Source of the DNA: Aliarcobacter cryaerophilus ATCC 43158
GTDB lineage: Bacteria; Campylobacterota; Campylobacteria; Campylobacterales; Arcobacteraceae
Assembly: GCF_003660105.1 (NCBI RefSeq)
Contig: NZ_CP032823.1
Coordinates: forward strand, 1-64,000
DNA: 64,000 nt
Direction: 5' to 3'
Below the pieces are notes generated by a model. The model saw only the letters and a list, made by a program, of their open reading frames with translations, made no database searches and was not told where the DNA came from. Positions within the stretch are counted from its first letter, which is position 1, and each line of letters opens with the position of its first letter. This document shows, piece by piece, positions 48,784 to 63,446 of the stretch. The position numbers were made by a program, and so were the translations under genes.

Positions 48784-49173
48784 ATGAAAATTTTATTTTC
48801 TCCTAGTGAGACAAAAATTAGTGGTGGAGATAAAAAGATTTTTGATAAAGATAGTTTTATATTTCCAGAGCTTTTTAATAAAAGAGTTGAAATAGTAAAC
48901 TCTTATAATGAGTTTTTAAAAACTGCTTCAATATCACAATTAGAGAAACTATTTGGTACAAAAAAAGGTGATGTAATAGAAAAATATAGAACAGATATTT
49001 TTAAAAGTCCACTTTTAAAAGCAATACAAAGATATGAAGGTGTTGCTTATGATTATTTAGATTATAGTAATTTAGAAAAAAGTTCACAAAAATATATAGA
49101 TGATAATGTTTTGATTTTCTCAAATCTTTTTGGAGTTCTAAAAGCAAGTTTTAGAAACTATCAATATAATTAA
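48784..49173 (+). pseudogene. yaaA: 5' part of interrupted host yaaA (peroxide stress protein)
   Basis: The first 121 codons (48784-49146) encode the N-terminal half of YaaA (DUF328), from MKILFSPSETK to FSNLFGVLKA. The reading frame then enters element sequence and stops at 49173 after eight foreign codons. The missing half is at 63069-63446. YaaA limits intracellular iron and oxidative DNA damage during peroxide stress. The fragment lies 13 bp after the Crp/Fnr gene, probably in the same transcript. Together the two halves would give about 247 residues, close to the 246-residue intact copy inside the element. Confidence 0.92.
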
Positions 49174-49187
49174 TAATTGAATTAATA
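49156..49187 (+). repeat. Left terminal inverted repeat of the element
   Basis: Begins with AACTATCAATA, which is perfectly inverted at the right end. The following 20 bases also match the right end imperfectly (the AATTGAATTAATA part matches 11 of 13). Confidence 0.75.
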
Positions 49188-49276
49188 TAAATATCATATT
49201 TATTCTATAAGTATTAATTCAATATATTTACAAAAATTTGATTATATAATTGAAATAATAAGTCATTATAACTTAA

Positions 49277-50488
49277 TTATCTTGATAAAGCTTTTTTAAC
49301 ATTTTTTGCAATAGCAAATGACATTAAAGGAGGAACAGCATTCCCTACTTGGATATATGTTTGTCCTTGTCCACCAATAAATACAAAATCATCTGGAAAA
49401 GATTGAATTCTAGCAGCTTCTCTAACAGATAAGGTTCTTAATTCTTCTGGATGAATATACATATAACCATCCATTCCAATATGGGCTAAGATTGTCCATG
49501 AGGGATTAGTATTTACCAACCTTTTAAGTCTATCTTTAAAAATGTCTTCTCGAAAAGGTAAGATATTTCTTATTTCTTTAGGTAAATCAATATAAATATC
49601 TCCTTGATTCATATACTCAAAAACTTTCTTTGCTCTATCATTAGACATTCTACATATATTATTTCGTACAGTATTCTTAGTGTTTTTTCTCATTAATTTT
49701 TGATAAGGATGTAACTTATTACTATAAGAATATTCACATTCATCTATTCTCCAATTATCTGTAATTATTGGTAAATCAGAAATTGCTGTTTTTACATCTA
49801 TATATAGGGGTAAGCCAGTTTTATTTAAAATCTTTGATTTTTCATACGTATTTGTAGATTTTGTGCTAAGCGACTCATCATACCAATGCGTAGGTGTTGG
49901 ATATTTAAAAGTTAAATTTTTTTTACAAGCAACTAGTATCATTCTTTTTCTTACTTGTGGTACACCATAAAAAACTGCATTTAATATTTGAGTAGGACTT
50001 ACTATTTCATATTCAGGTAAATCATTTTCAATTATTTGTTTAACTCTTTCAAATGTTTTTCCTTTGTATTTAGTCATAAAATTAGGAACATTTTCCATTA
50101 CAAAAATTTCAGGTTGAAAATATTTAACATACTTTAAATAATCCATAAAAAGTTCATTCCTAGGATCATCTGTGATATCTTTGTCTTTCATTCTAGAAAT
50201 TGATTGAATTTTTGCATGTCCAATTGTTGAGAATGTAGGACATGGTGGTCCTCCAATAATAACATCAATTTTATTTCCTTTTCCAATTATTTCATGAAAC
50301 TCTTCAGGTTCAATTTTTCTAATATCCCTACAAATTGATTTCGATTTTGGGAAATTAAATGAATGAGTATCAATAGCAGCTTTAACATTATCAATTCCAC
50401 CTACACATTCAAAACCAGCCATTTCAAAACCTTTTGCAAAACCTCCTGCACCACAAAACAAATCAATAAATTTATATTTCACAATCAA
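49277..50488 (-). CDS. DNA (cytosine-5) methyltransferase, first of two (M1)
   Basis: This 403-residue enzyme transfers a methyl group to C5 of cytosine in a specific sequence. Motif I is DLFCGAGGF (9-17), motif IV is GGPPCPTFS with the nucleophile C83, motif VI is ENV at 132-134, motif VIII is QVRKRM, motif IX contains SVREAARIQSFPDDF, and motif X is QVGNAVPP. The variable target-recognition region is about 205-330. It is the last gene of the five-gene cassette, overlapping the preceding gene by 4 bp. The recognition site cannot be read from sequence. It differs clearly from the second methyltransferase of the cassette. Confidence 0.92.
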   Translation of the reverse strand: MIVKYKFIDLFCGAGGFAKGFEMAGFECVGGIDNVKAAIDTHSFNFPKSKSICRDIRKIEPEEFHEIIGKGNKIDVIIGGPPCPTFSTIGHAKIQSISRMKDKDITDDPRNELFMDYLKYVKYFQPEIFVMENVPNFMTKYKGKTFERVKQIIENDLPEYEIVSPTQILNAVFYGVPQVRKRMILVACKKNLTFKYPTPTHWYDESLSTKSTNTYEKSKILNKTGLPLYIDVKTAISDLPIITDNWRIDECEYSYSNKLHPYQKLMRKNTKNTVRNNICRMSNDRAKKVFEYMNQGDIYIDLPKEIRNILPFREDIFKDRLKRLVNTNPSWTILAHIGMDGYMYIHPEELRTLSVREAARIQSFPDDFVFIGGQGQTYIQVGNAVPPLMSFAIAKNVKKALSR

Positions 50489-51372
50489 TTCTTACTCAAA
50501 TTTGTATAGTTAGTTCTGGCTAAAGTAACCTCAGGGACATAATCATAAGTGCTTTCTCCTTGCTTTGTAAATATATGAAGAATATAAACTTTATTAACTT
50601 CTTTCTTAAATAAAATTCTTATAGCAGATTGTTGTAGACCACCCATTGTGCCAACTTTAATTTGCAAAATATCACTATCAATTACTTTAACTAGAAAACC
50701 ATCGATCCTAAATTCACTATTCATAGATTCTGTTATCTTATCAACAATTTTTTCTCTTGAATCTGCATAATAATCAGTTGCATATAGTTTTTTAAATTCA
50801 TCTGAATACAAAATATTTTCTTGTGGCAATTGTTCTATTATTTTATCTTTATAGTGAGATAATACATGTTCTTTATTAGCAATATTATTTAAAACAACTT
50901 TTTCTGAACTACCATCTGCTTTTACTTTATTTGCAACAACTTTATACTTTGTCCATCTATTTTTTCCAAAGCTTAATAAAAAAGTCCTTTTTTCCAAACA
51001 ATAAGAAAGTATGATATACTTTTGTCCATCATATGGCTCATCTTCAAAATATAAATCACCATCTAGAATATTTTTCAGTTCATCATCAGTGATTTTATTT
51101 AAACAGTCAGTATCACATTTTCTTGATAAAAAAAGAGAAAAAGGCTCAAGCACTTCTCTTTTTAATAATTTTATTGCATCTTTAAACTTATAATTCTGAA
51201 TAATTTCAAATTCTAATATATCTTTTTCTTCCGTATAAAAACGACTTAACTTATATTCATCATAACTTAAAAATTTTTTTATACTTAATGCCATTTCAAG
51301 AAGTAACCTAGTTACTTCTTCTTTTGTATCAATATCCTCATTACTCAAGGTATTTAAAGTTAATAAATTCAC
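50485..51372 (-). CDS. Unrecognised 295-residue cassette protein
   Basis: I do not recognise this protein as a whole. It is soluble, with no membrane segment. The N-terminal two-thirds is alpha-helical and charged. The C-terminal 60 residues (GGLQQSAIRILFKKEVNKVY, then ILHIFTKQGE) loosely resemble the RelE/HigB toxin fold, where an arginine-containing strand is followed by a hydrophobic LLHxFxK segment. It overlaps the ATPase gene by 4 bp and the methyltransferase gene by 4 bp, so its production is tied to theirs. It is a candidate for the missing effector or for a specificity partner. Confidence 0.5.
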   Translation of the reverse strand: MNLLTLNTLSNEDIDTKEEVTRLLLEMALSIKKFLSYDEYKLSRFYTEEKDILEFEIIQNYKFKDAIKLLKREVLEPFSLFLSRKCDTDCLNKITDDELKNILDGDLYFEDEPYDGQKYIILSYCLEKRTFLLSFGKNRWTKYKVVANKVKADGSSEKVVLNNIANKEHVLSHYKDKIIEQLPQENILYSDEFKKLYATDYYADSREKIVDKITESMNSEFRIDGFLVKVIDSDILQIKVGTMGGLQQSAIRILFKKEVNKVYILHIFTKQGESTYDYVPEVTLARTNYTNLSKN

Positions 51373-52409
51373 ATTAATCTCATTTTATTATTTAAAGATG
51401 TATCGAAGAAATTTTCTGGCCACTCATCTAAATGACCTTCCTCTCCTATTTCAGGAGATAAAACTTTTGTATTTAAAATCTCATCAAGTTCAAAATAATG
51501 TAATTGTGTTTTATCTTTTCCAATTTTTTTATCTTTTACAGATAACCTTAAACCATCCAAAATATAATCACTATGTGTTTCAATAATAACCTGAATGCCA
51601 AAATTAGTTATTCTTGATATAAACTCAGCTAATTTTGTTTGTCCTTTAGGATGTAAGTGAGCTTCAGGATTTTCTATTAATATTAGAGATTTAATTTTAT
51701 GTTTATCAAATAGATATATTGAATATATTAATTGAACAAGAATTGATAAAGTATAACTTATCCCAAATCCTACATTATAAGGTGTATATCCATTAATAGA
51801 AAATGATGCTACATTCATTTTTTTATTCAATTCTGTTTCAAGCTTAACATTAGGAGAAATCTCTTGAAGCCATTTCTCTACATGATTAATTATTGTATTT
51901 TGTTTTTCAATATCTTTTTTAAATTCATCAGGTAACAGCTCATCTCTAAATTTTGACAAAATATCTAAAGTAAATTCACCATTAACTCCTACATTATTAT
52001 ATAATGAGGTTCTACTATTTCTTATATGTTGAAATTCTGTTGGTCCCAATCTGTTAGCACTAAGATATATCAAATGTATATTTTCTTTTTTAAATTCCTC
52101 TGAACCAATATGAGTAATAGTGTCATTTTCTAGATTTACAGATACATTTAATGATTTTTCTTCAGAAAAAAACAATTCTAAATTAAAAGACTTCTCTTTA
52201 CTATTAGTATTCTTTAATGTAGACAATTCACCATATTCATTTAACACTAAATCTCCAGAATATAAAAGTTGCCAAAACATTCTTAAAGATTGGAATATAC
52301 TACTTTTACCTGCTCCATTTAATCCTGTTAATAAAGTAATATTTTTAAATTTGATTTTACCATCTCTATGAGACTTAAAGTCTTTTAGATTTAACTGTGT
52401 AATGTACAT
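51369..52409 (-). CDS. DUF3696-family AAA ATPase (ABC/OLD-like)
   Basis: This 346-residue ATPase has Walker A GLNGAGKSS at 29-37, a signature-like NVGFGISYTL at 212-221, Walker B LILIENPEAHLHP at 242-254 and the sensor ETHSDYI at 277-283, all typical of the SMC/ABC-like AAA_15/AAA_21 group. The closing DEWPENFFD segment (about 327-335) is the DUF3696 signature. There is no TOPRIM nuclease domain, so it is not a full OLD nuclease. Such ATPases often act as sensors or motors in defence systems. It is coupled to the unknown protein by a 4-bp overlap and lies 9 bp after the DUF262 gene. Confidence 0.85.
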   Translation of the reverse strand: MYITQLNLKDFKSHRDGKIKFKNITLLTGLNGAGKSSIFQSLRMFWQLLYSGDLVLNEYGELSTLKNTNSKEKSFNLELFFSEEKSLNVSVNLENDTITHIGSEEFKKENIHLIYLSANRLGPTEFQHIRNSRTSLYNNVGVNGEFTLDILSKFRDELLPDEFKKDIEKQNTIINHVEKWLQEISPNVKLETELNKKMNVASFSINGYTPYNVGFGISYTLSILVQLIYSIYLFDKHKIKSLILIENPEAHLHPKGQTKLAEFISRITNFGIQVIIETHSDYILDGLRLSVKDKKIGKDKTQLHYFELDEILNTKVLSPEIGEEGHLDEWPENFFDTSLNNKMRLM

Positions 52410-52418
52410 TTTTTACCT

Positions 52419-54503
52419 TTATGTATATTTATTTATCATTTCAGATAATATTGAATATCTAACCTTAACGGATGACATTTTATGAGAATCTCTTCCTATC
52501 ATATTTGAAAATTCTGTAGTTAAAAGAAATTTTTCTTTATATTCTAATAAAAATTCATTTTTATGTTTTAATAATGTACTAAATTTATTTTCATCTAAAT
52601 TTAATAATAAATTACTAAATACTTCAAATAATGTTTTATTAATTGAAGTTCTTCTCTTTCCAGGAAAAGATTTCCTAAAAGTGTGGGAACCAAAAAGTTG
52701 TTTATTTCTAATCATTGCAAGTTCAAAATCTTTTTTTATTTCTTTTATACTAACTTTCTTAATAGACATATATAAATTGTTTAAATCTAGATTTTTTTCA
52801 TTTTTAAATTCATCTTGTAGTTTCTCAAAAGATAATTTATTCAAAATATTAATAATTCTCATTGTAGTACTTAGATGATTATCCATACTTGAATCTTTAA
52901 TATAATGAACATGGTCTCTAAGATAAAAACTTAAAAATCTTAAAATTAATTCTCTACCTGACATCCTCGTGTCATCTATCTTCTCTACTGCATTTAAAAA
53001 ATACTCATTCCCTACCAATTCTTCTAATAAAATAGTTGAATCACCTTGATATAGAGCATGCCTAATTTCTTGTGAAGTTAAAGGCATTCCTCCTGTATTA
53101 ATTCTTTTAAAAATATTTCTTTTTACTTCTTCTGGAGTATCTGGATTAATAATTGTAAAACTTAATTCTGTTTCCATTATGTTATTATAAGGTTTACCAG
53201 GAAATTCACTGTCATGAATATTAAATCCTTCTAAATCTCTCCAAAATTCTAATTTTCTTAATTTAAAACCTTTTCCATCATATTCGTTTTTATTATTATC
53301 ATTATTACCTAAAATAAATTCTTTAATAGTTGATAATCTTTGTAAACCATCAACAACCGTCCAATTATTATTTTTATCACTTGAAACATAGAACATTGGT
53401 AAAGGAATATTTAACATCATAGATTCTATCAATCTACTTTTCCTTTCTATATCCCAAACCGTTTTTCTTTGAAAAGCAGGTTTTAAGTTTATTTCATTCT
53501 TTTTAATTCTTCTCAATAATCCTTCAAGAACAACAGCTTTTGTTTGAATAGATATTTCGTCAGGATTAAAAGGTGTAGTAAAAATTTCTTCATCAGAAGA
53601 ATCATTTTCTATTCCTGTCTCCTTTCCAGACTCTCCTAATTCGTTATAAATAACATTTATAAAAGCATTTTCTTTCCATTTATTAAATCTTTCCTGATTA
53701 TTTAAGAATTTCGCCCACTCAGTTGCATTTTCTTTATCAGATAAATTCTCATTAATTACACAAACATCTTCTCTAATTTCATCTCTCAATAACCATTTGA
53801 TTTTACTAATAACTCCATACTCTTTTGATAAACCAAATGCAAAATCTTCATCAATAGTATAATCAGAACTTTCAAAAGTTAAAAGACTAGAATTTCTTAA
53901 ATAAGTTATATCATAAGCTAAAACTCTTATTTTTTGTATATCTAAGAAATTGTTTTTTCTTCGTTCTATTATATTTAATGCTAATTCTACATTTATATTT
54001 CTATATGATTTAAAAAAATTATTTGAGACCTTAAATAATTCATAAAATTCTGTTTTTGTTAAATAAGCTTCTTCTTTATTTATCTTTTCTAACTCTAATA
54101 AAAGAGATAAAATTAATAAATAAGGTTTTCTAATTTCCATATTTTTATTTTCATTTTGATTAAATCTTGGATATTGAAAATATGCTAATGAATAATCTAG
54201 ATATATATTAATAAACTGTGAATCACTCATATTATTTTCTAAAAACTCATTCTGCTCAACAATATATTTATTATTTTCTTTTCTTGTTTGTAATAAACCT
54301 AAGAAATTTATTAGCGTTATAATTTGTCCAAAATAGCTAGGATTTTCTTTTTTATCAAAAACTATAGGACATATTTCTTTTAATTCATCATAATCTTTAC
54401 CAAAAACCTTTGAAATAAATTTATCATATATATTATAAACATTATCTGTATTCATAACTTGAACATTTGGAATATTCCAATACATCTTTTTTGCTTCACT
54501 CAT
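52419..54503 (-). CDS. DUF262 protein with long N-terminal extension
   Basis: This 694-residue protein has a DUF262 (ParB/sulfiredoxin-fold) domain starting near 320. Its PAFQRKTVWD motif is at 342-351 and the DGLQRLST nucleotide-binding motif at 385-392. DUF262 domains occur in GmrS/BrxU-type modification-dependent systems, usually with a DUF1524 HNH nuclease, but no HNH motif is present here. The first 310 residues are a separate region. Part of it (KPYLLILSLLLELE, then YLTKTEFYELF, about 126-158) looks like a winged helix seen in some type II restriction enzymes; that comparison is tentative. It overlaps the upstream methyltransferase gene by 8 bp. Confidence 0.8.
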   Translation of the reverse strand: MSEAKKMYWNIPNVQVMNTDNVYNIYDKFISKVFGKDYDELKEICPIVFDKKENPSYFGQIITLINFLGLLQTRKENNKYIVEQNEFLENNMSDSQFINIYLDYSLAYFQYPRFNQNENKNMEIRKPYLLILSLLLELEKINKEEAYLTKTEFYELFKVSNNFFKSYRNINVELALNIIERRKNNFLDIQKIRVLAYDITYLRNSSLLTFESSDYTIDEDFAFGLSKEYGVISKIKWLLRDEIREDVCVINENLSDKENATEWAKFLNNQERFNKWKENAFINVIYNELGESGKETGIENDSSDEEIFTTPFNPDEISIQTKAVVLEGLLRRIKKNEINLKPAFQRKTVWDIERKSRLIESMMLNIPLPMFYVSSDKNNNWTVVDGLQRLSTIKEFILGNNDNNKNEYDGKGFKLRKLEFWRDLEGFNIHDSEFPGKPYNNIMETELSFTIINPDTPEEVKRNIFKRINTGGMPLTSQEIRHALYQGDSTILLEELVGNEYFLNAVEKIDDTRMSGRELILRFLSFYLRDHVHYIKDSSMDNHLSTTMRIINILNKLSFEKLQDEFKNEKNLDLNNLYMSIKKVSIKEIKKDFELAMIRNKQLFGSHTFRKSFPGKRRTSINKTLFEVFSNLLLNLDENKFSTLLKHKNEFLLEYKEKFLLTTEFSNMIGRDSHKMSSVKVRYSILSEMINKYT

Positions 54504-55722
54504 TAATTATTCCTAAAGTTTTTTTAATAGCTTTTGCTATTGCTTTTGACATTAAAGGAGGTACTGCATTACCCACTTGTTTATATTGATTAGTCCTTGC
54601 ACCAATAAATTGAAAATCATCTGGAAAAGATTGTATTCTAGCAGCTTCTCGAACAGTAAATGTTCTTTCCTGACTAGAATCTGGATGAATAAATAAATTA
54701 CCATCCTTAGATAAATGGGCAACTATTGTTAAACTTGGTTTATCAAACCGTTGAACTTTATATTTATTAATAAAGTGATCAGGATCATAATTAACTAGAT
54801 CAGGTCTTAAGTCAACTAAATCTTTCAGTAACCAATTATTTTTACTTAAAAGTTTGTATCTTTCTCTATCTTTTTCATTATGTTTTCTTGCAACATGATT
54901 ATACAACTTATCTGTATTTTCTTTTCGCATTATTTTAATATAATCATTATTACTATTTGATTTAAAAGAAACTTCTTCTTTTCCTTCCCCTGGAAATAAT
55001 TTAGGTAAATCAGAAATTGCCTCTTCAACTGTAACAAACTTTAACAACTTAGTATCTTCTTCACAAGGTCCATAATGTGTTTTTTCTATTAAATTATATA
55101 TATCTTTTGATTTAATCTTAAGTTCTTTTTTTATACCAATAAGAATAACTCTTTTTCTTAATTGAGGAACTCCATAATTAACAGAATTTAATACAATCCT
55201 TTCTTCATCATTATAAACATCATAACCATTCTTTTCAAACTCTTTAATTATTTCTGGGAAAATTCTATAACCATTTGGTTTTGAAGTTAATAGTCCTGTA
55301 ACATTTTCAAAAATAAATATTTTTGGTTTGATTCTTGTAAGACATTCAATATAGTGTTTATATAAATAGTTCCTCTTGTCATTTTTCATTGAATTAGGGT
55401 CTTGAGCCCTTCCTACTGATGAAAATGCTTGACAAGGCGGACCACCTAAAAGAATATCTACTTCTTTTCCATCTAATAGTTTTATAATTTTATCAATATT
55501 GTTATGATTTGTTAAATCATAATTTAATACCTTTTTCTTTATTTGACTAGATTCTCCACCATAATATTTTAATCTATTTGATAGTGTTTCACACGCTTTT
55601 TCATCTATGTCAACGTGACATAAACCTTCAAATCCTAATTGTAGAAAACCTTCTGATAAACCACCACAACCAGCAAATAAATCTACAAAAGTAAATATTT
55701 TATTATTAATATAGTTTTTCAT
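54496..55722 (-). CDS. DNA (cytosine-5) methyltransferase, second of two (M2)
   Basis: This 408-residue enzyme is the first gene of the cassette. Motif I is DLFAGCGGLSEGF (14-26), motif IV is GGPPCQAFS with C97, motif VI is ENV at 139-141, then QLRKRV, TVREAARIQSFPDDF and QVGNAVPP. It is a complete Dcm-type methyltransferase and not a close copy of the first one: their target-recognition regions differ. Two cytosine methyltransferases in one operon are typical of systems that recognise an asymmetric site and need one enzyme per strand. It lies 78 bp downstream of the serine recombinase gene. Confidence 0.92.
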   Translation of the reverse strand: MKNYINNKIFTFVDLFAGCGGLSEGFLQLGFEGLCHVDIDEKACETLSNRLKYYGGESSQIKKKVLNYDLTNHNNIDKIIKLLDGKEVDILLGGPPCQAFSSVGRAQDPNSMKNDKRNYLYKHYIECLTRIKPKIFIFENVTGLLTSKPNGYRIFPEIIKEFEKNGYDVYNDEERIVLNSVNYGVPQLRKRVILIGIKKELKIKSKDIYNLIEKTHYGPCEEDTKLLKFVTVEEAISDLPKLFPGEGKEEVSFKSNSNNDYIKIMRKENTDKLYNHVARKHNEKDRERYKLLSKNNWLLKDLVDLRPDLVNYDPDHFINKYKVQRFDKPSLTIVAHLSKDGNLFIHPDSSQERTFTVREAARIQSFPDDFQFIGARTNQYKQVGNAVPPLMSKAIAKAIKKTLGIINE

Positions 55723-55800
55723 TTAGCCTTTCATTATTTAATTTTCTTAAATATTTTTAATTAAATTTATTTTTATTCATAGCTAATATCTAAAAAATTA

Positions 55801-56418
55801 TTATAATTTTTTAGACTTTATATAGTTATTTAAACTTTGTCTAGTTCCAACTTCAATAATTTTACTTATGCTTGAGATAGAAACTTTTTTTTTCAATAAT
55901 TCTTTAATTTTGTCTAAATGTTTATCATAGATAGATTTAACAATGGCACCTTTTTTTCTACCTAATTTTATTCCCTGAGCTTTTCTTAAAGCTAATGCCG
56001 ATTTAGTTCGTTCACTTATAAAATTTTTTTCCATTTGGGCAAAACAGCTTAGTAATGTAAGCATCATGTCATTTATAGGATTTGAAATACTACCATCTAC
56101 AATTAAACCATCTTGAATTATATGTAAAACAATACCTTTTGTTTTTATCTCCTCGATAATTCTTAAAACTTCTATTGTACTTCTACCTAATCTATCAAGC
56201 TTAGTGACAATCAAAATATCATTTTTTTTCAATTCATGTATTGTCTTGTCTATTAATCTATCTTTCTTATTTTTTGACGAAGTGATATCTATTTCTACAA
56301 TTTCAGATAATAAAAAATTGTTTTTATGTGCATATTCAAGTATTTCACTTCTTTGGGTTTTTGTAGATTGTGTTGATGTTGATACTCTAGTGTATACATA
56401 AACTAAAGAATTAGACAT
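55801..56418 (-). CDS. Serine recombinase (resolvase/invertase)
   Basis: This 205-residue protein has the catalytic domain of small serine recombinases: YTRVSTSTQ at 9-17 with the nucleophilic serine S13, and KLDRLGRST (about 73-81) with active-site arginines. The C-terminal HTH is about 160-200 (SISSISKIIEVGTRQSLNNY). It resolves or inverts DNA at short dyad sites, and imperfect dyads lie just upstream at 56432-56473. Its role may be to resolve dimers or control the cassette. It is separate from the tyrosine-recombinase operon. Confidence 0.88.
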   Translation of the reverse strand: MSNSLVYVYTRVSTSTQSTKTQRSEILEYAHKNNFLLSEIVEIDITSSKNKKDRLIDKTIHELKKNDILIVTKLDRLGRSTIEVLRIIEEIKTKGIVLHIIQDGLIVDGSISNPINDMMLTLLSCFAQMEKNFISERTKSALALRKAQGIKLGRKKGAIVKSIYDKHLDKIKELLKKKVSISSISKIIEVGTRQSLNNYIKSKKL

Positions 56419-56431
56419 TGCTTTTCCACAG

Positions 56432-56473
56432 ATTGTAAGTTTAAATATGACAATTATATCTAAACTTTACAAT
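56432..56473. promoter_or_regulatory. Inverted repeat upstream of the serine recombinase (possible res site)
   Basis: ATTGTAAGTTTAAATAT (56432-56448) is nearly the inverse of 56456-56473, ending in TAAACTTTACAAT, with 7 nt between. A further TTTACAAT-type half-site follows. Multiple dyads ahead of a small serine recombinase are typical of its own recombination and operator site. Confidence 0.4.
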
Positions 56474-56540
56474 TATGACAAATTTAAAAATATGTATTTA
56501 CTTTACAATAATACAATTTTTAATGTTCATCTATACTTAC

Positions 56541-57281
56541 TTATTTTATATTATAAATAATTTCTGTTTTTAACTTCTGTTTTTTTATCTCTTTAATTGA
56601 AAGATTATCAATATTTATATTCATTAATTCATCTATACTCTGAATATTATTTTGAGCTAATAACCTTAAAATTATACCTCTATATGCTTTTGCCCAATGG
56701 CTAACAACTTTACCATCTTTTATAAACTTCATTGTTGTATATGGTTTCTTTATTGTATAAAATTTTTCATAGAATCCCGCTCTTAAATCAACTATATCAT
56801 CATCTTTAAGATAATTATCTAATGAATTAGAAAATTTTTCATTATAAAATTTTTCTAATTCAAAATCTCCAATTTTTTCATTTTGTTTTAACTTATAGTC
56901 TGGAATTCCCATATCACCTGCAAGAATTGGACCCATTAAATTCGAAAAGATAACTACATTTTCATCAATGTATGCCTTTTCAATATTTTTTAGAGTTGAA
57001 TATTTTAGATAGTCAAAAGCTACTCCATCATATCTTTCTATAACTTTCATAATTTCTTTTTCTAGAAGATTTCCTTTATAATAATCAATCATATCTTCTT
57101 TTTTAGTTCCAAATAATTTTTCTAATTTTCCATTTGATGCATTATTAATAAAAGTTTGATATAAATTTACTACTTTTATTCTTTCTTCAAATAATTCTGG
57201 AAAAAGAAAACTGTTTTTGTTAATTTTTTTAGTTTCTCCACCTTTAAATTTTGTTTCACTTGGTGAGAATAGGATTTTCAT
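56541..57281 (-). CDS. yaaA: Intact YaaA (peroxide stress protein) carried by the element
   Basis: This complete 246-residue YaaA/DUF328 protein matches both broken halves of the host gene: MKILFSPSETK at the start, NVVIFSNLMGPILAGDMGIP at the junction region, and FYEKFYTIKKPYTTMKFIKD near 170-189. It differs from the host halves at many positions, so it is not a recent duplicate. Its start codon lies inside the end of the large recombinase gene (26-bp overlap) behind a GGAG ribosome-binding site, so it is the fourth gene of the integrase operon. It probably supplies YaaA activity lost through insertion. Confidence 0.93.
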   Translation of the reverse strand: MKILFSPSETKFKGGETKKINKNSFLFPELFEERIKVVNLYQTFINNASNGKLEKLFGTKKEDMIDYYKGNLLEKEIMKVIERYDGVAFDYLKYSTLKNIEKAYIDENVVIFSNLMGPILAGDMGIPDYKLKQNEKIGDFELEKFYNEKFSNSLDNYLKDDDIVDLRAGFYEKFYTIKKPYTTMKFIKDGKVVSHWAKAYRGIILRLLAQNNIQSIDELMNINIDNLSIKEIKKQKLKTEIIYNIK

Positions 57282-60200
57282 TTTTATACTCCAATTTTAA
57301 TTTTTTATTTTCAAGTAATTTCAATAAATTTTCAAGTTCTTGTTTGTTTTTTTCATTTGTTTGCCAATTAATTGATATCTTTTGATAAGTTGGTAAAAAC
57401 CATTTTATAATTTCTTCATTATTTAAATCTTCAATTTCTGTATAAGAATTATTATTTATAGTGTATTTGATAATTTTATTTGCCATGATGTTAGTGATAT
57501 CAACAACTGTTTCATTATCATATATTTTTCTTTTGTAGGTCTCAGATAATATCTCTAGATATCCATGTTCAATATTAAGAGATGGTATCAAGGCAAAAAT
57601 AGAGTTTTCCATTTGATTCGAATAATTAGCTAAAGAGGTATCGTTTTTTACCTTATTCAAATTATATTGTGAATCATTGTATGATGAGTTTGCCAATGAT
57701 AATATTTCTAACCAAGCTGTAAAATCTTCAATTTCATTGTTCATCTGTTGTTTTAATTTTGAATTATTTTCATTATTTCCATCTTCTCGATTTTTAATTA
57801 TCATTTCACTATATTTTTTTACTCTAGCCATTGATAATTGCATTTCCAATCCGATTTCTTGTGTAAACATATAATTTGTTATGAAATATGGGCATAAACT
57901 ACATCTTCCAATTATTTGAGATGGACATTGAGTTTTTGTGCAAATGCCTGTTCTTAAGGGTTTCCAATATAATGGTTCAGATTTTGAAATTTTTGCTAAT
58001 GTAATTTCATCTTTAAAAGTTAAATCTCTATTTTGAGGATTAAAGAAATTATAATTATTTAATATTTCTAGAATAATTTCTGGATTTTTTGATTTTATTT
58101 CATCTTTTAATATTTCTTTTTTTATAAATAATTGACTTAATTCATGCATATTTATATTTTCTGTAATATCAATATTATGTTTAGTTAGCCAATTATTAAC
58201 TAGTGCATCTTGATTTATATGATTATAAATAGTTAAAATAGTATTAAAACCACTATGTCCACTTAGCATTCTTACCAATTCTAAAGGCATTCCTGCTTTA
58301 ATATTTCTAGTAATTCCTGTATGTCTTAATGAGTGAATATCGTATTTTTTCTTAAAAGTATTTATTTCACTACTTGTTAAATTATCTAATTCTTCTTGTG
58401 TTTTTGGTAAATCAACTTCTTTACTGTAAATTAAAAATTTATTTTTATTCTCTTGATTAAATTCCATTTGAGCTTGAATTAATACTTTTGTCCAATAAAG
58501 CATATGCTGTCTTTCTGGATATGCTCCTGTACCATCTGCATTTGGAAACAATGGTAAGATACCATTTTTTAATGTTATATCGTCAGGATAATATTTTTTT
58601 AAGAATGGAAAAAAAGCTTTATTATATTCTATTAAATTAATTAAAAAAGACAATTCACTTTTCCAAATATTAGGAACAATAAATGGTTCTTTTCTTTTTT
58701 TATTTTTATCACTCACAAAATGAAATCCTTTTATATTTCCTCTATCTCCTATTACCAATAAGGAATCTCTATTAATTAATCTTAAAGAAGCACCTCTTGT
58801 GGGAATTCTTAAATGTAATTTAATAATTAACGGTTCAAAGGGAACAACTCTATCAAAATATTTCCACCATGAAGTATCTACAGAAACTTTATGGTTATTG
58901 AAGTAGTTACTTTTAGGTGGTCTTGTCGTTACAATATCATCTATTTTATAAATTATTTCTTCATCTTCAATTGCTTCTCTTTTTGAAGGTATTGAGGTGT
59001 TATAATTTGGAAGTTTTCCTTTTGTAAAAACATTTTCATATCCAAGTGTATTAGAAAATATTTCCAAAAAGATTGAAATTTTGCTACTTTTTGTACTATC
59101 TGATATTTCTAAACTATTAATATATTCTTGATAAGTATATATCTTTGAATTAGGATAATCAAATAGTTTTGTTAAATTATCTTTATTTAGAATCAAATTT
59201 GTATGAAATTTATCTACAAATTCTAAAAAGCTAACTATTTTTGAACTGGTGCTTTTATTGTAAGTTTTTGGTATTGATGTTTGATTTAATTTAACTTTTC
59301 TATTCATGTGTTCATTACATATGGTTATGAAATCTTGATAGTTTTTATTTTTCATATAGAAATAATAATCAGTTGTAAATTGATTTGTATCTTTAAAAAT
59401 ATTTATATTTGCACCAAATTTATTAAAAAGTTTTTTTATCAAATTAGCTTTTGTTGTATCAAACATATTTATTTTATTAAAGTATTCATCTGTAATTGTT
59501 TCTATCTTAGTATTGAAATTATTCAGGCTAAGACAAAATAAATAAAATAACCTTTTAATTTTGATTTCTTTATCATTTAAAATATTCCTATTTAAAGCAT
59601 CTTGGTAACTTTTATTAATAAAAAATTCTGATTCAAATAGAGATAACTCCTTTTGAACTTTTTTGGAATCATAGATATCTCTATAAACAAATTCAAAAGA
59701 AAATAGTATTTGTTTTTTTATATATAAGAAAATTAACAATCCTAACAACATGTTTTGCCTATGAATACCATAAATCTTATCATTGGCTAAAACATTTTTT
59801 TTGCTTAAATGCACAATGTCTTTTAATTTTAAGTTTTTTACATGTAATTTTTTATCCAATAAAAAGTATATTTTTTTATTATCTGTATTTATTTTTAATT
59901 TATTATTTCTATCAAACAATTCATTGGTTACATTTATTCTCTTTGCTGACAATAAAGCTAAATATTCATTAAGATATTCCATCCAAAAAATTTCTAAATC
60001 TTTTTCACATTCTTCTATAGCAATAATGTCACTATCATCATTATGATATGATGGTAGAACTTTTGTATATGAGATTTTTGTATTATTATTTTTATTAAGA
60101 TATTTTATATTATCTTCAAGAGTATTTTCTAATTTTTTTTCATCAAATAAATCTTTAGATAAAATTCTTATATTATGAATTTCTTGAATATAATCCTTAT

Positions 60201-60981
60201 ATTCTAATATTTTTTTATACCCTAAATTAGGAAAAGAATATGTATATCCTAATTTAGAAAATTCTCCTGCAAAAATCTGATTAATTCCTTTTTCTTTGAG
60301 ATTAGAAGCGATTTTATTTATAATGTCTTTTTCATAATAATTAGCATTTTTTATTTTCTTGTTAAGGGTAATAGGAATATTCATTTGAATGATTTCATTC
60401 GAATAGTTGTATAAAGAAGTAAGAGAAATTTCACCTTTAAGATGTTTATATAGAGTAGGCATATCAATTTTTTCATTTTTTAATTTTAATTCTTGTACAA
60501 CATTTGATTCTGAAAAATCTTTTAAAATAGATATAACATTCTCTTTTTGTTTTTTACTAGTATAAAAAGATAAATTGATTTCTTTCATAATTTTTTTTAC
60601 ATTGTTATATTTTAAAAAGGTAGTATTTAATTTTATTTTAAATTTATATTTCTCTATCAAAATTTCTTCTAATTCTTTTCCTGTAATAACATTCTTTTTT
60701 AAATCATTTTTTATATAATATAATGCTTTTTCTACTAGTTCTCTAGTATTTTTTTGTTTTTCTTCTCTATAAACATAAATATCAATATTGGCATCTTCAA
60801 ATAATTTAGAAAAACTTCGCATAGTAATTATTAACTGTGTTATACTTTTATCATGATTGGGGAAATATTTGTCCATATTTTGTGCAAGTTCATAAAAACT
60901 GGTAGAACTAATATCTTCTTTTTCTAAAATTCCAATTAGTTCTATTATTTGATTTTTACCAAAAGTTGTATGTCTAGCCAT
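57256..60981 (-). CDS. Very large tyrosine recombinase (1241 residues)
   Basis: The catalytic domain of this integrase has the HxxR box with H883 and R886 (DIHSLRHTGITR), H909 in LSGHSGF, and the tyrosine nucleophile Y919 in LTIYNH; the first arginine is probably in the LRIPTRGASLRL stretch. A cysteine cluster GICTKTQC...GRCSLCPYF (about 1012-1030) could bind zinc. The first roughly 700 residues are mostly helical, of unknown function. Ordinary integrases have 300-450 residues; TnpB of Tn554 and GInt recombinases are the closest large relatives. Its ATG overlaps the stop of the small upstream gene (TAATG), and it overlaps yaaA by 26 bp. Confidence 0.85.
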   Translation of the reverse strand: MARHTTFGKNQIIELIGILEKEDISSTSFYELAQNMDKYFPNHDKSITQLIITMRSFSKLFEDANIDIYVYREEKQKNTRELVEKALYYIKNDLKKNVITGKELEEILIEKYKFKIKLNTTFLKYNNVKKIMKEINLSFYTSKKQKENVISILKDFSESNVVQELKLKNEKIDMPTLYKHLKGEISLTSLYNYSNEIIQMNIPITLNKKIKNANYYEKDIINKIASNLKEKGINQIFAGEFSKLGYTYSFPNLGYKKILEYKDYIQEIHNIRILSKDLFDEKKLENTLEDNIKYLNKNNNTKISYTKVLPSYHNDDSDIIAIEECEKDLEIFWMEYLNEYLALLSAKRINVTNELFDRNNKLKINTDNKKIYFLLDKKLHVKNLKLKDIVHLSKKNVLANDKIYGIHRQNMLLGLLIFLYIKKQILFSFEFVYRDIYDSKKVQKELSLFESEFFINKSYQDALNRNILNDKEIKIKRLFYLFCLSLNNFNTKIETITDEYFNKINMFDTTKANLIKKLFNKFGANINIFKDTNQFTTDYYFYMKNKNYQDFITICNEHMNRKVKLNQTSIPKTYNKSTSSKIVSFLEFVDKFHTNLILNKDNLTKLFDYPNSKIYTYQEYINSLEISDSTKSSKISIFLEIFSNTLGYENVFTKGKLPNYNTSIPSKREAIEDEEIIYKIDDIVTTRPPKSNYFNNHKVSVDTSWWKYFDRVVPFEPLIIKLHLRIPTRGASLRLINRDSLLVIGDRGNIKGFHFVSDKNKKRKEPFIVPNIWKSELSFLINLIEYNKAFFPFLKKYYPDDITLKNGILPLFPNADGTGAYPERQHMLYWTKVLIQAQMEFNQENKNKFLIYSKEVDLPKTQEELDNLTSSEINTFKKKYDIHSLRHTGITRNIKAGMPLELVRMLSGHSGFNTILTIYNHINQDALVNNWLTKHNIDITENINMHELSQLFIKKEILKDEIKSKNPEIILEILNNYNFFNPQNRDLTFKDEITLAKISKSEPLYWKPLRTGICTKTQCPSQIIGRCSLCPYFITNYMFTQEIGLEMQLSMARVKKYSEMIIKNREDGNNENNSKLKQQMNNEIEDFTAWLEILSLANSSYNDSQYNLNKVKNDTSLANYSNQMENSIFALIPSLNIEHGYLEILSETYKRKIYDNETVVDITNIMANKIIKYTINNNSYTEIEDLNNEEIIKWFLPTYQKISINWQTNEKNKQELENLLKLLENKKLKLEYKNENPILTK

Positions 60982-61577
60982 TAAAGATTTCCTAGATTTA
61001 GTAGTTTAATAATTTGTGATGATATTAAAACTTGATGTTCAGACTCAGTAATTAAATTCATATCTTTATCTAAAAAAGCAATACCTTCTTGCCTTGTAAA
61101 ATTTACTAAATCTTTTAAAATACTTTGGAAATCTATATTATTAGCTTTTTGGATTTGCAAAGAACTATTATTTTGAATGTTAGCTCTTTTAATTATTGCT
61201 TCAAGCTCTTTATTTTTGGCTTCTTGTTTTGCAATCATAGTTTTTAATTTAAAAACTTCAAATTGTTTATCCCCATCTGTATTATATTTCTTATTCTTAC
61301 TATTGTTAAATTCTGAATTATCATTTGCTTCTAAAATCATATTTTTATAAATTTCATTTTTTGAAATTGCAGATGGAGTAATTACTGCATCATATTCTTT
61401 ATCCTTCGATGTTGATAATTTTTCCATCATTTCACATACATTTTTTTGATTAATCTTTGCATTAAGGTTTTGTAATTCCTGAATAGCTCTTGCTAACAAC
61501 TGTTCAGTAAGAGCTTTCTTTTTATTTCTCCACTCTTTTAAATTATCATTTTCGCTTCGTAAGTCTTTTGCCATCAT
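60981..61577 (-). CDS. Small coiled-coil accessory protein of the recombinase module (TnpC-like)
   Basis: This 198-residue protein has an N-terminal helical region with RAIQELQNLN and ITPSAISKNEIYK (about 30-80), resembling the HTH-like part of DUF6262/TnpC proteins, and a coiled coil (about 105-135). TnpC in Tn554 influences the orientation and efficiency of transposition. It lies between the two tyrosine recombinases, overlapping the first by 32 bp and the second by 1 bp (TAATG), so the three are translationally linked. AGGAG precedes two adjacent ATGs; the second (61574) has better spacing. Confidence 0.65.
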   Translation of the reverse strand: MMAKDLRSENDNLKEWRNKKKALTEQLLARAIQELQNLNAKINQKNVCEMMEKLSTSKDKEYDAVITPSAISKNEIYKNMILEANDNSEFNNSKNKKYNTDGDKQFEVFKLKTMIAKQEAKNKELEAIIKRANIQNNSSLQIQKANNIDFQSILKDLVNFTRQEGIAFLDKDMNLITESEHQVLISSQIIKLLNLGNL

Positions 61578-62937
61578 ATTTCTCCTGCAATTGTTCTAAA
61601 CTCATTGATTTCATCATTTCATCATATAAAGTAATAATATGTTCTCCCAATTCAATATCAAGGTGCCAAGGTCTATTAAAATATACATCAGTTGAAGATA
61701 AACTTCTATGTCCCATTGCTTCTTTTGTAATGATTTTAATCTGGTCTATAGGAATATTATATTTTAAATCTTTTTTATTCATTAATATTTTGGCTTGAAA
61801 TGTTGCCATCATAACTCCAAACATATGTCTCAAAGAGTGTAATCCTAAACCATCAAGATTATTTGCTTTTTCAGGGAAAAGTTTTTTTAATTTTTCACAA
61901 TGAGCTGTAAATGTAACATGTACTTGTTGCGGAGTTAATCTTGCACCACTATTTGTTACAAAAAAGAAAGGATGCTTTGGTATTCTTGAGCTTTCTGGTA
62001 AGAATTTATACTCAGCTAAAGTATCAAAGAATAAACTTCTATATATATCTGAAATCCAATATAGTGGTATTCTATTCTTGAATCGTAATGGAATAGGAGC
62101 TTTGAATCCAACATTTGAATGTGGTTTATCTTTTGCTGCATCAATATTATAAACATCTTGTAAAAAAGTTTTTCTACCTATTCCATGTATTCCTAATTGG
62201 TCATTACTTCTAGGGTCAATCAACCAAACATGTTTATTTTCGTAGTCAAAATCATACAAAGTTAAATTTAGTACTTGCGAAACTCTTGCTGAACATGCAC
62301 CACATAGTAGATATATGAGTTTTTCTCTTGGTGATGATATTTCAAGTAAAGAATTAAATAATTGATATGGAAAAGATTTGAAATCATTTCCTAGAGATTT
62401 ATTTCTTGGAGGAATAACAGATATATCATTAGCAAATGCTTTTTGAGCAAGAGAGCCCATTCTTAATCCATATCCATCATGTACAGAATTCTTAAAACTA
62501 TGATTTAAAGATTTAATATTTTTTTCAAGATTAAAACTAGTGAATAAACCTTGATTAGTAGATTTTAAGAAATCTTCAATAATTGCCTTATCTTTATCGA
62601 TTGTTGTTGGTTGCTTTGGATTTATAGAAAGTATTTTGTAATTAACTACTTGGTTTAATTCTTGAATAAAAATTGAATCATAAATTTCAAATCCATTTTC
62701 ACAGTCTGAAAGGTATTTTGATAGATAATAAACTAATTGTTCATTTGATGTGGAAGGATTAGCTAAACTCCAAATAATAAATGATTTAATAGAAGATAAA
62801 ATAGTTTTTAATGAATTAGGTTTTACTCTTTTAATGAGAACTTTTATCTTGATATAATTTTCTAGTTCAGGAAAGAAATATAGTTCATTATTCAAATATA
62901 AAGTAAAAAAATATTCATTGTTTATTTCTTTATACAT
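61546..62937 (-). CDS. Tyrosine recombinase, first gene of the module (TnpA-like)
   Basis: This 463-residue integrase has a complete catalytic set: R218 in GACSARVSQV, the HxxR box H367/R370 (GLHSLRHMFG), H410 in MGHRSL and Y419 in TDVYFNRP. The N-terminal 150 residues form the arm- and core-binding region. It is the gene nearest the right end of the element and starts the recombinase operon, so its promoter and likely the attachment sites lie in 62938-63068. Confidence 0.88.
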   Translation of the reverse strand: MYKEINNEYFFTLYLNNELYFFPELENYIKIKVLIKRVKPNSLKTILSSIKSFIIWSLANPSTSNEQLVYYLSKYLSDCENGFEIYDSIFIQELNQVVNYKILSINPKQPTTIDKDKAIIEDFLKSTNQGLFTSFNLEKNIKSLNHSFKNSVHDGYGLRMGSLAQKAFANDISVIPPRNKSLGNDFKSFPYQLFNSLLEISSPREKLIYLLCGACSARVSQVLNLTLYDFDYENKHVWLIDPRSNDQLGIHGIGRKTFLQDVYNIDAAKDKPHSNVGFKAPIPLRFKNRIPLYWISDIYRSLFFDTLAEYKFLPESSRIPKHPFFFVTNSGARLTPQQVHVTFTAHCEKLKKLFPEKANNLDGLGLHSLRHMFGVMMATFQAKILMNKKDLKYNIPIDQIKIITKEAMGHRSLSSTDVYFNRPWHLDIELGEHIITLYDEMMKSMSLEQLQEKYDGKRLTKRK

Positions 62938-63037
62938 TTTATTAATTCCTAATTCAATTATATATAGTAGTATTTTATATAAACTAAAATAAAGAATAAC
63001 TTAATATTTAAATGTTAAAATATCAATGTTTTATATT
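62938..63037. other. Element right-end non-coding region
   Basis: About 100 bp of AT-rich sequence between the first recombinase gene and the right terminal repeat. It probably holds the recombinase promoter and arm-type binding sites. No other feature was recognised. Confidence 0.4.
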
Positions 63038-63068
63038 TATTAGTTCAAGTTAGATATTATTGATAGTT
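63038..63068 (-). repeat. Right terminal inverted repeat of the element
   Basis: Ends in TATTGATAGTT, the exact inverse of the left end's first 11 bases. The more internal 20 bases match the left end imperfectly. Host yaaA codons resume at the next base. Confidence 0.75.
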
Positions 63069-63446
63069 GACGAAATACCAGATTATAAACTAAAGCAAGG
63101 TGAAAGTTTTTGTGATTTAAAAATAGAGAAATTTTATAACGATAATTTTAGCAAAGAACTTGATAAATATTTAGAAAATGATAATATTTTAGATTTAAGA
63201 GCTGGATTTTATGAGAAGTTTTATACTATAAAAAAACCATATAAAACATTGAAGTTTATAAAAGATGGAAAGGTTGTAAGCCATTTTGCAAAGGCTTATA
63301 GGGGAGAGATTCTAAAAATTGTTGCACAAAATGATATAAAAACTTTTGATGATTTTATGAATTTAGAGTTAAAAGACCTAAAACTTGAAGAAATAAAAGA
63401 GCAAAAATTAAAAACAGAAATTGTTTATAGTATAAATAAAAGGTAA
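63069..63446 (+). pseudogene. yaaA: 3' part of interrupted host yaaA
   Basis: These 125 codons encode the C-terminal half of host YaaA from DEIPDYKLKQ to the end, including FYEKFYTIKKPYKTLKFIKD and VVSHFAKAYRGEILK, matching the intact copy in the element. A TTG at 63060 in the element end could start a short product, but it lacks a clear ribosome-binding site. The 5' half is at 48784-49146. The next gene starts 3 bp after the stop. Confidence 0.92.

Follow-up and report, generated by a model that had tools for sequence, protein, structure and literature searches.

A genomic island that splits yaaA and carries a complete, divergent yaaA at the end of its recombinase operon

When a mobile element interrupts a coding gene and itself encodes a complete version of that gene, the question arises whether the carried gene makes up for the broken one. 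This question is raised by yaaA in the window, the whole stretch of 64,000 nucleotides of Aliarcobacter cryaerophilus ATCC 43158 analysed here. The split of the host yaaA noted in the preliminary description is real, as judged by the junction with the intact locus of genome G022 from the same genus, although the cut falls after codon 122 (position 49149) and not after codon 121. In blastn, the intact G022 yaaA stretch matches the window with 94.2% identity across 1867 bp up to 49149 in the left flank and with 96.0% over 933 bp in the right flank starting at 63068; the two flank alignments meet at one query base, and the element junction is exact. The host gene resumes in frame at 63069, as had been described, and the joined halves, both of them open, encode 247 residues with 95.1% identity to the G022 protein. 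An empty site exists, with yaaA whole in G022, and the search for an uninterrupted gene in relatives gave a single full-length yaaA match in 29 of 30 same-genus genomes, the remaining genome, which lacks a match, being 54% complete. Three mismatches to G022 occur in the 12 bases to the right of the junction, and their interpretation as bases delivered by the element is unproven. The features of the locus are listed below in window coordinates.

48784..49149, + strand: host yaaA 5' part, 122 codons, by match to the intact G022 locus
49150..63068, no strand: integrated element, 13,919 bp, with a one-base junction ambiguity; the blastn alignment of the intact G022 locus is interrupted at 49149/63068
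49150..49155, no strand: six bases separating host DNA from the left terminal sequence, putatively coupling-like
49156..49187, + strand: left terminal sequence, common to both ends of the Sulfurovum element L045 (0/500 shuffles as good, either end)
49277..50488, - strand: DNA cytosine-5 methyltransferase, cargo
50485..51372, - strand: PADLOC NsnC, cargo (E=6.1e-20)
51369..52409, - strand: AAA ATPase, PADLOC NsnB, cargo (E=2.7e-90)
52419..54503, - strand: GmrSD_N-domain protein, PADLOC NsnA, cargo (E=6.6e-112)
54496..55722, - strand: DNA cytosine-5 methyltransferase, cargo
55801..56418, - strand: serine recombinase, Mpi-invertase-like, cargo
56541..57281, - strand: carried complete yaaA, 246 aa (Pfam YaaA E=1.1e-37)
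57256..60981, - strand: large tyrosine recombinase, 1241 aa, GmtZ-like (Pfam PF00589 E=3.3e-7; relatives found)
60981..61577, - strand: small protein, 198 aa, GmtX-like by position, without family match (relatives by tblastn)
61546..62937, - strand: tyrosine recombinase, 463 aa, GmtY-like (PF00589; NF040693 44.7 bits, under the cut-off of 340)
63058..63068, - strand: right terminal sequence, repeating the first 11 bases of the left terminal sequence in inverted orientation
63069..63446, + strand: host yaaA 3' part, resuming in frame, by match to the intact G022 locus

From the right end of the element, an operon runs through the genes for the 463-aa recombinase, the 198-aa protein and the 1241-aa recombinase (together referred to here as the trio) to yaaA, with all genes overlapping. 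The preliminary description correctly recognised a complete YaaA of 246 residues within the element (Pfam E=1.1e-37), encoded by the fourth gene of this operon with an overlap of 26 bp with the large recombinase gene. In the cargo, NsnABC-like defence genes (window 49277-55722) are flanked by two cytosine methyltransferase genes, which have several repeated stretches in common that are 71-90% identical. Scans for inverted repeats and folding within the window's element gave nothing clear.

A search for other elements with a recombinase-linked yaaA was also productive. A recombinase-alignment scan of genome contigs yielded 25 loci, the two best of which, L045 in a Sulfurovum MAG (G471) and L044 on a 3.3-kb contig of a Sulfurimonas MAG, share 99.8% identity across 3252 bp and were counted as one case, making two independent cases in total, the second of which is a MAG contig. 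In L045, the C-terminal part of yaaA adjoins the recombinase gene, the same four-gene order ends in a full yaaA whose overlap with the large recombinase gene is 4 bp (26 bp for the window's element), and the split gene's N-terminal part lies 12.1 kb away on the same contig. The cut is at the same aligned codon boundary, between A-S and D-E-I-P in the window and between A-S and D-L-I-P in Sulfurovum, and the same insertion site has thus been used repeatedly, at one codon boundary in two genomes. Among relatives of the Sulfurovum MAG, yaaA is uninterrupted across the site in at least 21 of 29 loci. The recombinases of both yaaA elements form a clade (GmtY-like, 99/98; GmtZ-like, 100/100), and their large recombinases (window 57256-60981; L045 11157-14894) measure 1241 and 1245 aa, compared with 946-1070 aa in most relatives. 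Both have an N-terminal extension that is absent from most relatives, has no clear Pfam match and might bear on target choice. The element ends are also related, since the left end of the window's element aligned with the left and with the right end of L045 better than all 500 shuffles in each case. For the remaining pairs, the shuffles as good numbered 3/500 for the L045 ends against each other and 44/500 for the window's ends against each other (11 bases, inverted), both by local alignment, 65/500 for the two right ends, and 48/500 for the window's right end against the left end of L045. Taken alone, inverted repeats at the ends of the window's element thus fall short of significance.

These comparisons bear on the possibility that the split arose through faulty assembly or binning, or represents an old pseudogene without relation to the element. 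The origin of the second case from a MAG would favour such an account, but the junction in the window is exact against an intact relative, the open host halves are 95% identical to the protein of that relative, and the junction in L045 is identical in two MAG contigs that are 99.8% alike, so that this explanation is hardly credible. Assembly error in particular is very unlikely because the second genome has the same structure at the same codon.

The insertion is precise, the site occurs empty, the carried gene is intact and overlaps the operon, and codon and gene order recur in the genome of a second bacterium that is only distantly related. The favoured reading, which is likely though well short of certain, is that of a site-specific genomic island that splits yaaA at one codon boundary and compensates with a complete foreign yaaA in its own operon; judged from sequence, the island probably makes good the damage done to yaaA. 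Under this reading, the two tyrosine recombinases and their small partner would catalyse the insertion of a circular form at the yaaA site (between A-S and D-x-I-P), and different short bases would remain at each junction after insertion. The carried yaaA, as the last gene of that operon, would then supply the protein, provided that it is expressed and restores function, and excision would be expected to restore the host gene. In Escherichia coli, YaaA reduces the level of free iron, and peroxide causes DNA damage in yaaA mutants (PMC8115020); loss of yaaA could therefore be costly. The need for rescue may not be universal, since the order as a whole does not depend on yaaA: a YaaA match was found in 323 of 398 genomes sampled from it and none in the other 75.

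A comparison comes from islands of other Campylobacterota in which a homologous trio is likewise inserted within a coding gene, differing in that the target is comM and no replacement comM is present in 7/7 genomes. A whole-genome search for ComM (TIGR00368) in 13 genomes found comM split beside recombinase genes with both parts on one contig in five (G017, G300, G330, G342, and G380) and with the parts on two contigs in two (G126 and G1293), and none of these seven genomes with a trio-split comM has another full-length comM. The gene is whole in G033, G104, and G372; G1292, where a comM fragment adjoins the trio but an intact comM stands at another, unremarkable locus, was left out as ambiguous. 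A copy of the target is therefore carried by 2/2 yaaA islands and 0/7 comM islands, and since the comM islands are without compensation, compensation is not required by the machinery. Close relatives of the yaaA-island recombinases that split comM without replacement provide a natural comparison for when an element must pay for a broken gene. In the window's own genome, comM is split by an insertion of ~15 kb (L266, G000:C1:1409000-1427000) that holds TnsA-, Mu-transposase-, TniB-, and TniQ-domain proteins and is Tn7-like. The splitting of comM without replacement, including by a Tn7-like element, fits comM being dispensable. Genome G330 has two trio copies (L099 and L100), one of them within comM; the copy outside comM has a shorter large recombinase (867 vs 965 aa) and lies near what are presumably hydrogenase-like genes.

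The strategy had been put forward as undescribed for yaaA, and no yaaA island was found in the literature searched; as a strategy it is not new, having been published for recA (PMC4405046). According to Rapa et al., the recA element RME of Vibrio cholerae S24 excises, targets recA and carries a working recA, which the authors regard as offsetting the disruption, the same reasoning as is applied here to yaaA (PMC4405046). As in the window, RME is described as an island that interrupts a conserved gene and brings along a complete, divergent version of it from another lineage; RME has inverted repeats at its ends (PMC4405046). It differs in its target (recA), its size (32.8 kb), its gammaproteobacterial host and the position of the carried recA, which in that account lies at the end opposite the integrase and outside its operon (PMC4405046). 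In addition, excision and targeting were established by experiment for RME, whereas the yaaA island is known from sequence. The yaaA island departs from RME in its target, operon linkage and phylum and, apparently, in its recombinase set, and it contributes a second independent case as well as a related control group free of replacement. Target replacement, known from one recA island, would thus be a recurrent solution that has arisen for an unrelated target in another phylum.

Gamma-Mobile-Trio (GMT) islands (Mahata et al. 2024, as cited in PMC12039261) reportedly consist of a three-gene recombination set with defence cargo. The window holds such a set and cargo, with two PF00589 proteins, NsnABC-like genes and two methyltransferases. 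Resemblance to GMT islands thus lies in the two tyrosine recombinases with a small protein, in the defence cargo and in weak matches to the NCBIfam models for GmtY (window) and GmtZ (L045). Differences are the Campylobacterota host, yaaA as a fourth operon gene and recombinases far under both curated cut-offs: for GmtY (NF040693, cut-off 340 bits), the window scores 44.7 bits and L045 has no match at E<=1, and for GmtZ (NF047926, cut-off 600 bits), L045 scores 28.2 bits and the window has no match at E<=1. The sole GmtY over the cut-off among 274 gammaproteobacterial-class genomes (L183, G988) has no yaaA within the 20 kb examined; it adjoins a GreA/GreB fragment of 110 codons, and greB may be another in-gene target. 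The Tn554 family and RIT elements also have several cooperating tyrosine recombinases, one of them unusually long in some Tn554 relatives, and insert into genes such as radC (PMC3414803). They are set apart by description, having another gene make-up and no carried target copy reported in the portion of that source available (PMC3414803).

The carried and host YaaA are homologous yet divergent, as had been noted, with 60.0% identity, which rules out a recent duplication of the host gene. Both carried YaaAs retain 44/44 near-invariant columns (invariant, with one exception at most, in 46 native rows), and no sequence in the PDB was matched by the carried YaaA. The proposal that DNA divergence around the insertion point hides the carried copy from the recombinase did not hold up. 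Of 39 bases around the site, 21 agree between the two targets, and 23-27 agree between carried copies and targets when the carried copies are granted their best 3-base gap; the carried copies are no less target-like than the targets are to each other, and immunity by divergence is therefore not supported. Both carried copies have one extra codon where the insertion would fall, which at first resembled recoding, but 27 of 94 native YaaAs also have one (five identical or short rows of 103 were removed, and relatives of the carried copies are over-represented in the sample); its bearing on protection is suggestive at best.

The ancestry of the carried genes is not that of their recombinases. The window's carried YaaA is placed away from the host copy and groups with a protein of G056 in one tree or with G098, G056, and G1271 in another, and that of L045 groups with the YaaA of a Sulfurimonas MAG, so that the two carried YaaAs are not a clade, though their recombinases are sisters. 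One ancestral carried yaaA co-diverging with the trio was accordingly rejected (p-AU 2.9e-5 on 50 rows), with a weaker rejection on 98 rows with a quick tree (p-AU 0.036); both tests presuppose one history per gene, which a mosaic pattern calls into question. Codons 180-240 of the window's carried gene have 89-92% DNA identity to the same-genus G001, whereas upstream of codon 180 the identity is 62-72%, the generally conserved codons 160-200 excepted; in trees, the nearest row changes from G098 (codons 1-172) to G001 (codons 173-246). The gene thus seems to be a mosaic. An origin of its 3' part within the genus is likely from these identities, yet a clade uniting the genus rows with the carried copy was rejected with either part of the gene (p 0.003 and 0.044). 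Non-matching ancestry and a mosaic look point to an exchange of rescue genes between islands and hosts, and their upkeep thereby becomes testable. A further tentative proposal, which is possible but on the whole improbable, is that one line of trio islands became specialised for a single yaaA codon junction, its rescue yaaA being swapped or patched from successive hosts. If so, the disrupt-and-replace unit would stay usable in each new host, as a natural counterpart of engineered cleave-and-rescue elements.

The same differing ancestry and apparent mosaicism, which fit repeated capture or exchange, could be read as signs of a passenger, a yaaA captured from an earlier host beside the integration site and without a selected role. 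This account is doubtful, as the gene lies at the same place and overlaps its operon neighbour in both elements, distant as these are, its frames are intact with conserved columns kept, and no comparable capture of comM is seen (0/7). Similarly doubtful is an account in which the carried YaaA takes part in recombination as a subunit of the machinery, for instance as a site-recognition or DNA-bending partner, and has only an incidental likeness to the target. Such a role would agree with the place of yaaA as the last gene of the recombinase operon, overlapping the large recombinase gene in both elements, with the description of YaaA as a DNA-binding protein (PMC11701544) and with the occurrence of yaaA only in the trio clade with the longer large recombinase. 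For a co-evolving subunit, however, it would be odd that the recombinases form a clade and the carried YaaAs do not, and 14 related loci are without yaaA: it was found near none of the 14 other GmtY-like loci in the stretches of 7.4-21 kb examined, 12 of which also match the large partner.

The large recombinase was found in 5 of 104 family genomes, the window's included, and in 12 of 397 genomes from the order of the Sulfurovum MAG, several of these matches being weak; among all large recombinases found, only those of the window and L045 are of the 1240-aa kind with yaaA. More than one YaaA piece occurs in 13 of the 398 genomes, including the window's own, and a split at this codon was seen in none of the 12 others (11 re-searched, and G1231, which has two full-length copies) among the matches listed. 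Seven genomes of one genus (G160, G174, G209, G211, G214, G217, and G229) have a second, short YaaA C-terminus frame of ~66-78 codons that stands far from the full yaaA. Phage records yielded no relatives of the large recombinase, and viral contigs yielded none for the two recombinases. A Sulfurospirillum plasmid (NZ_CP118374.1 10409-12355), which is a possible vehicle for such islands, encodes a protein distantly related to the large recombinase (28.7%).
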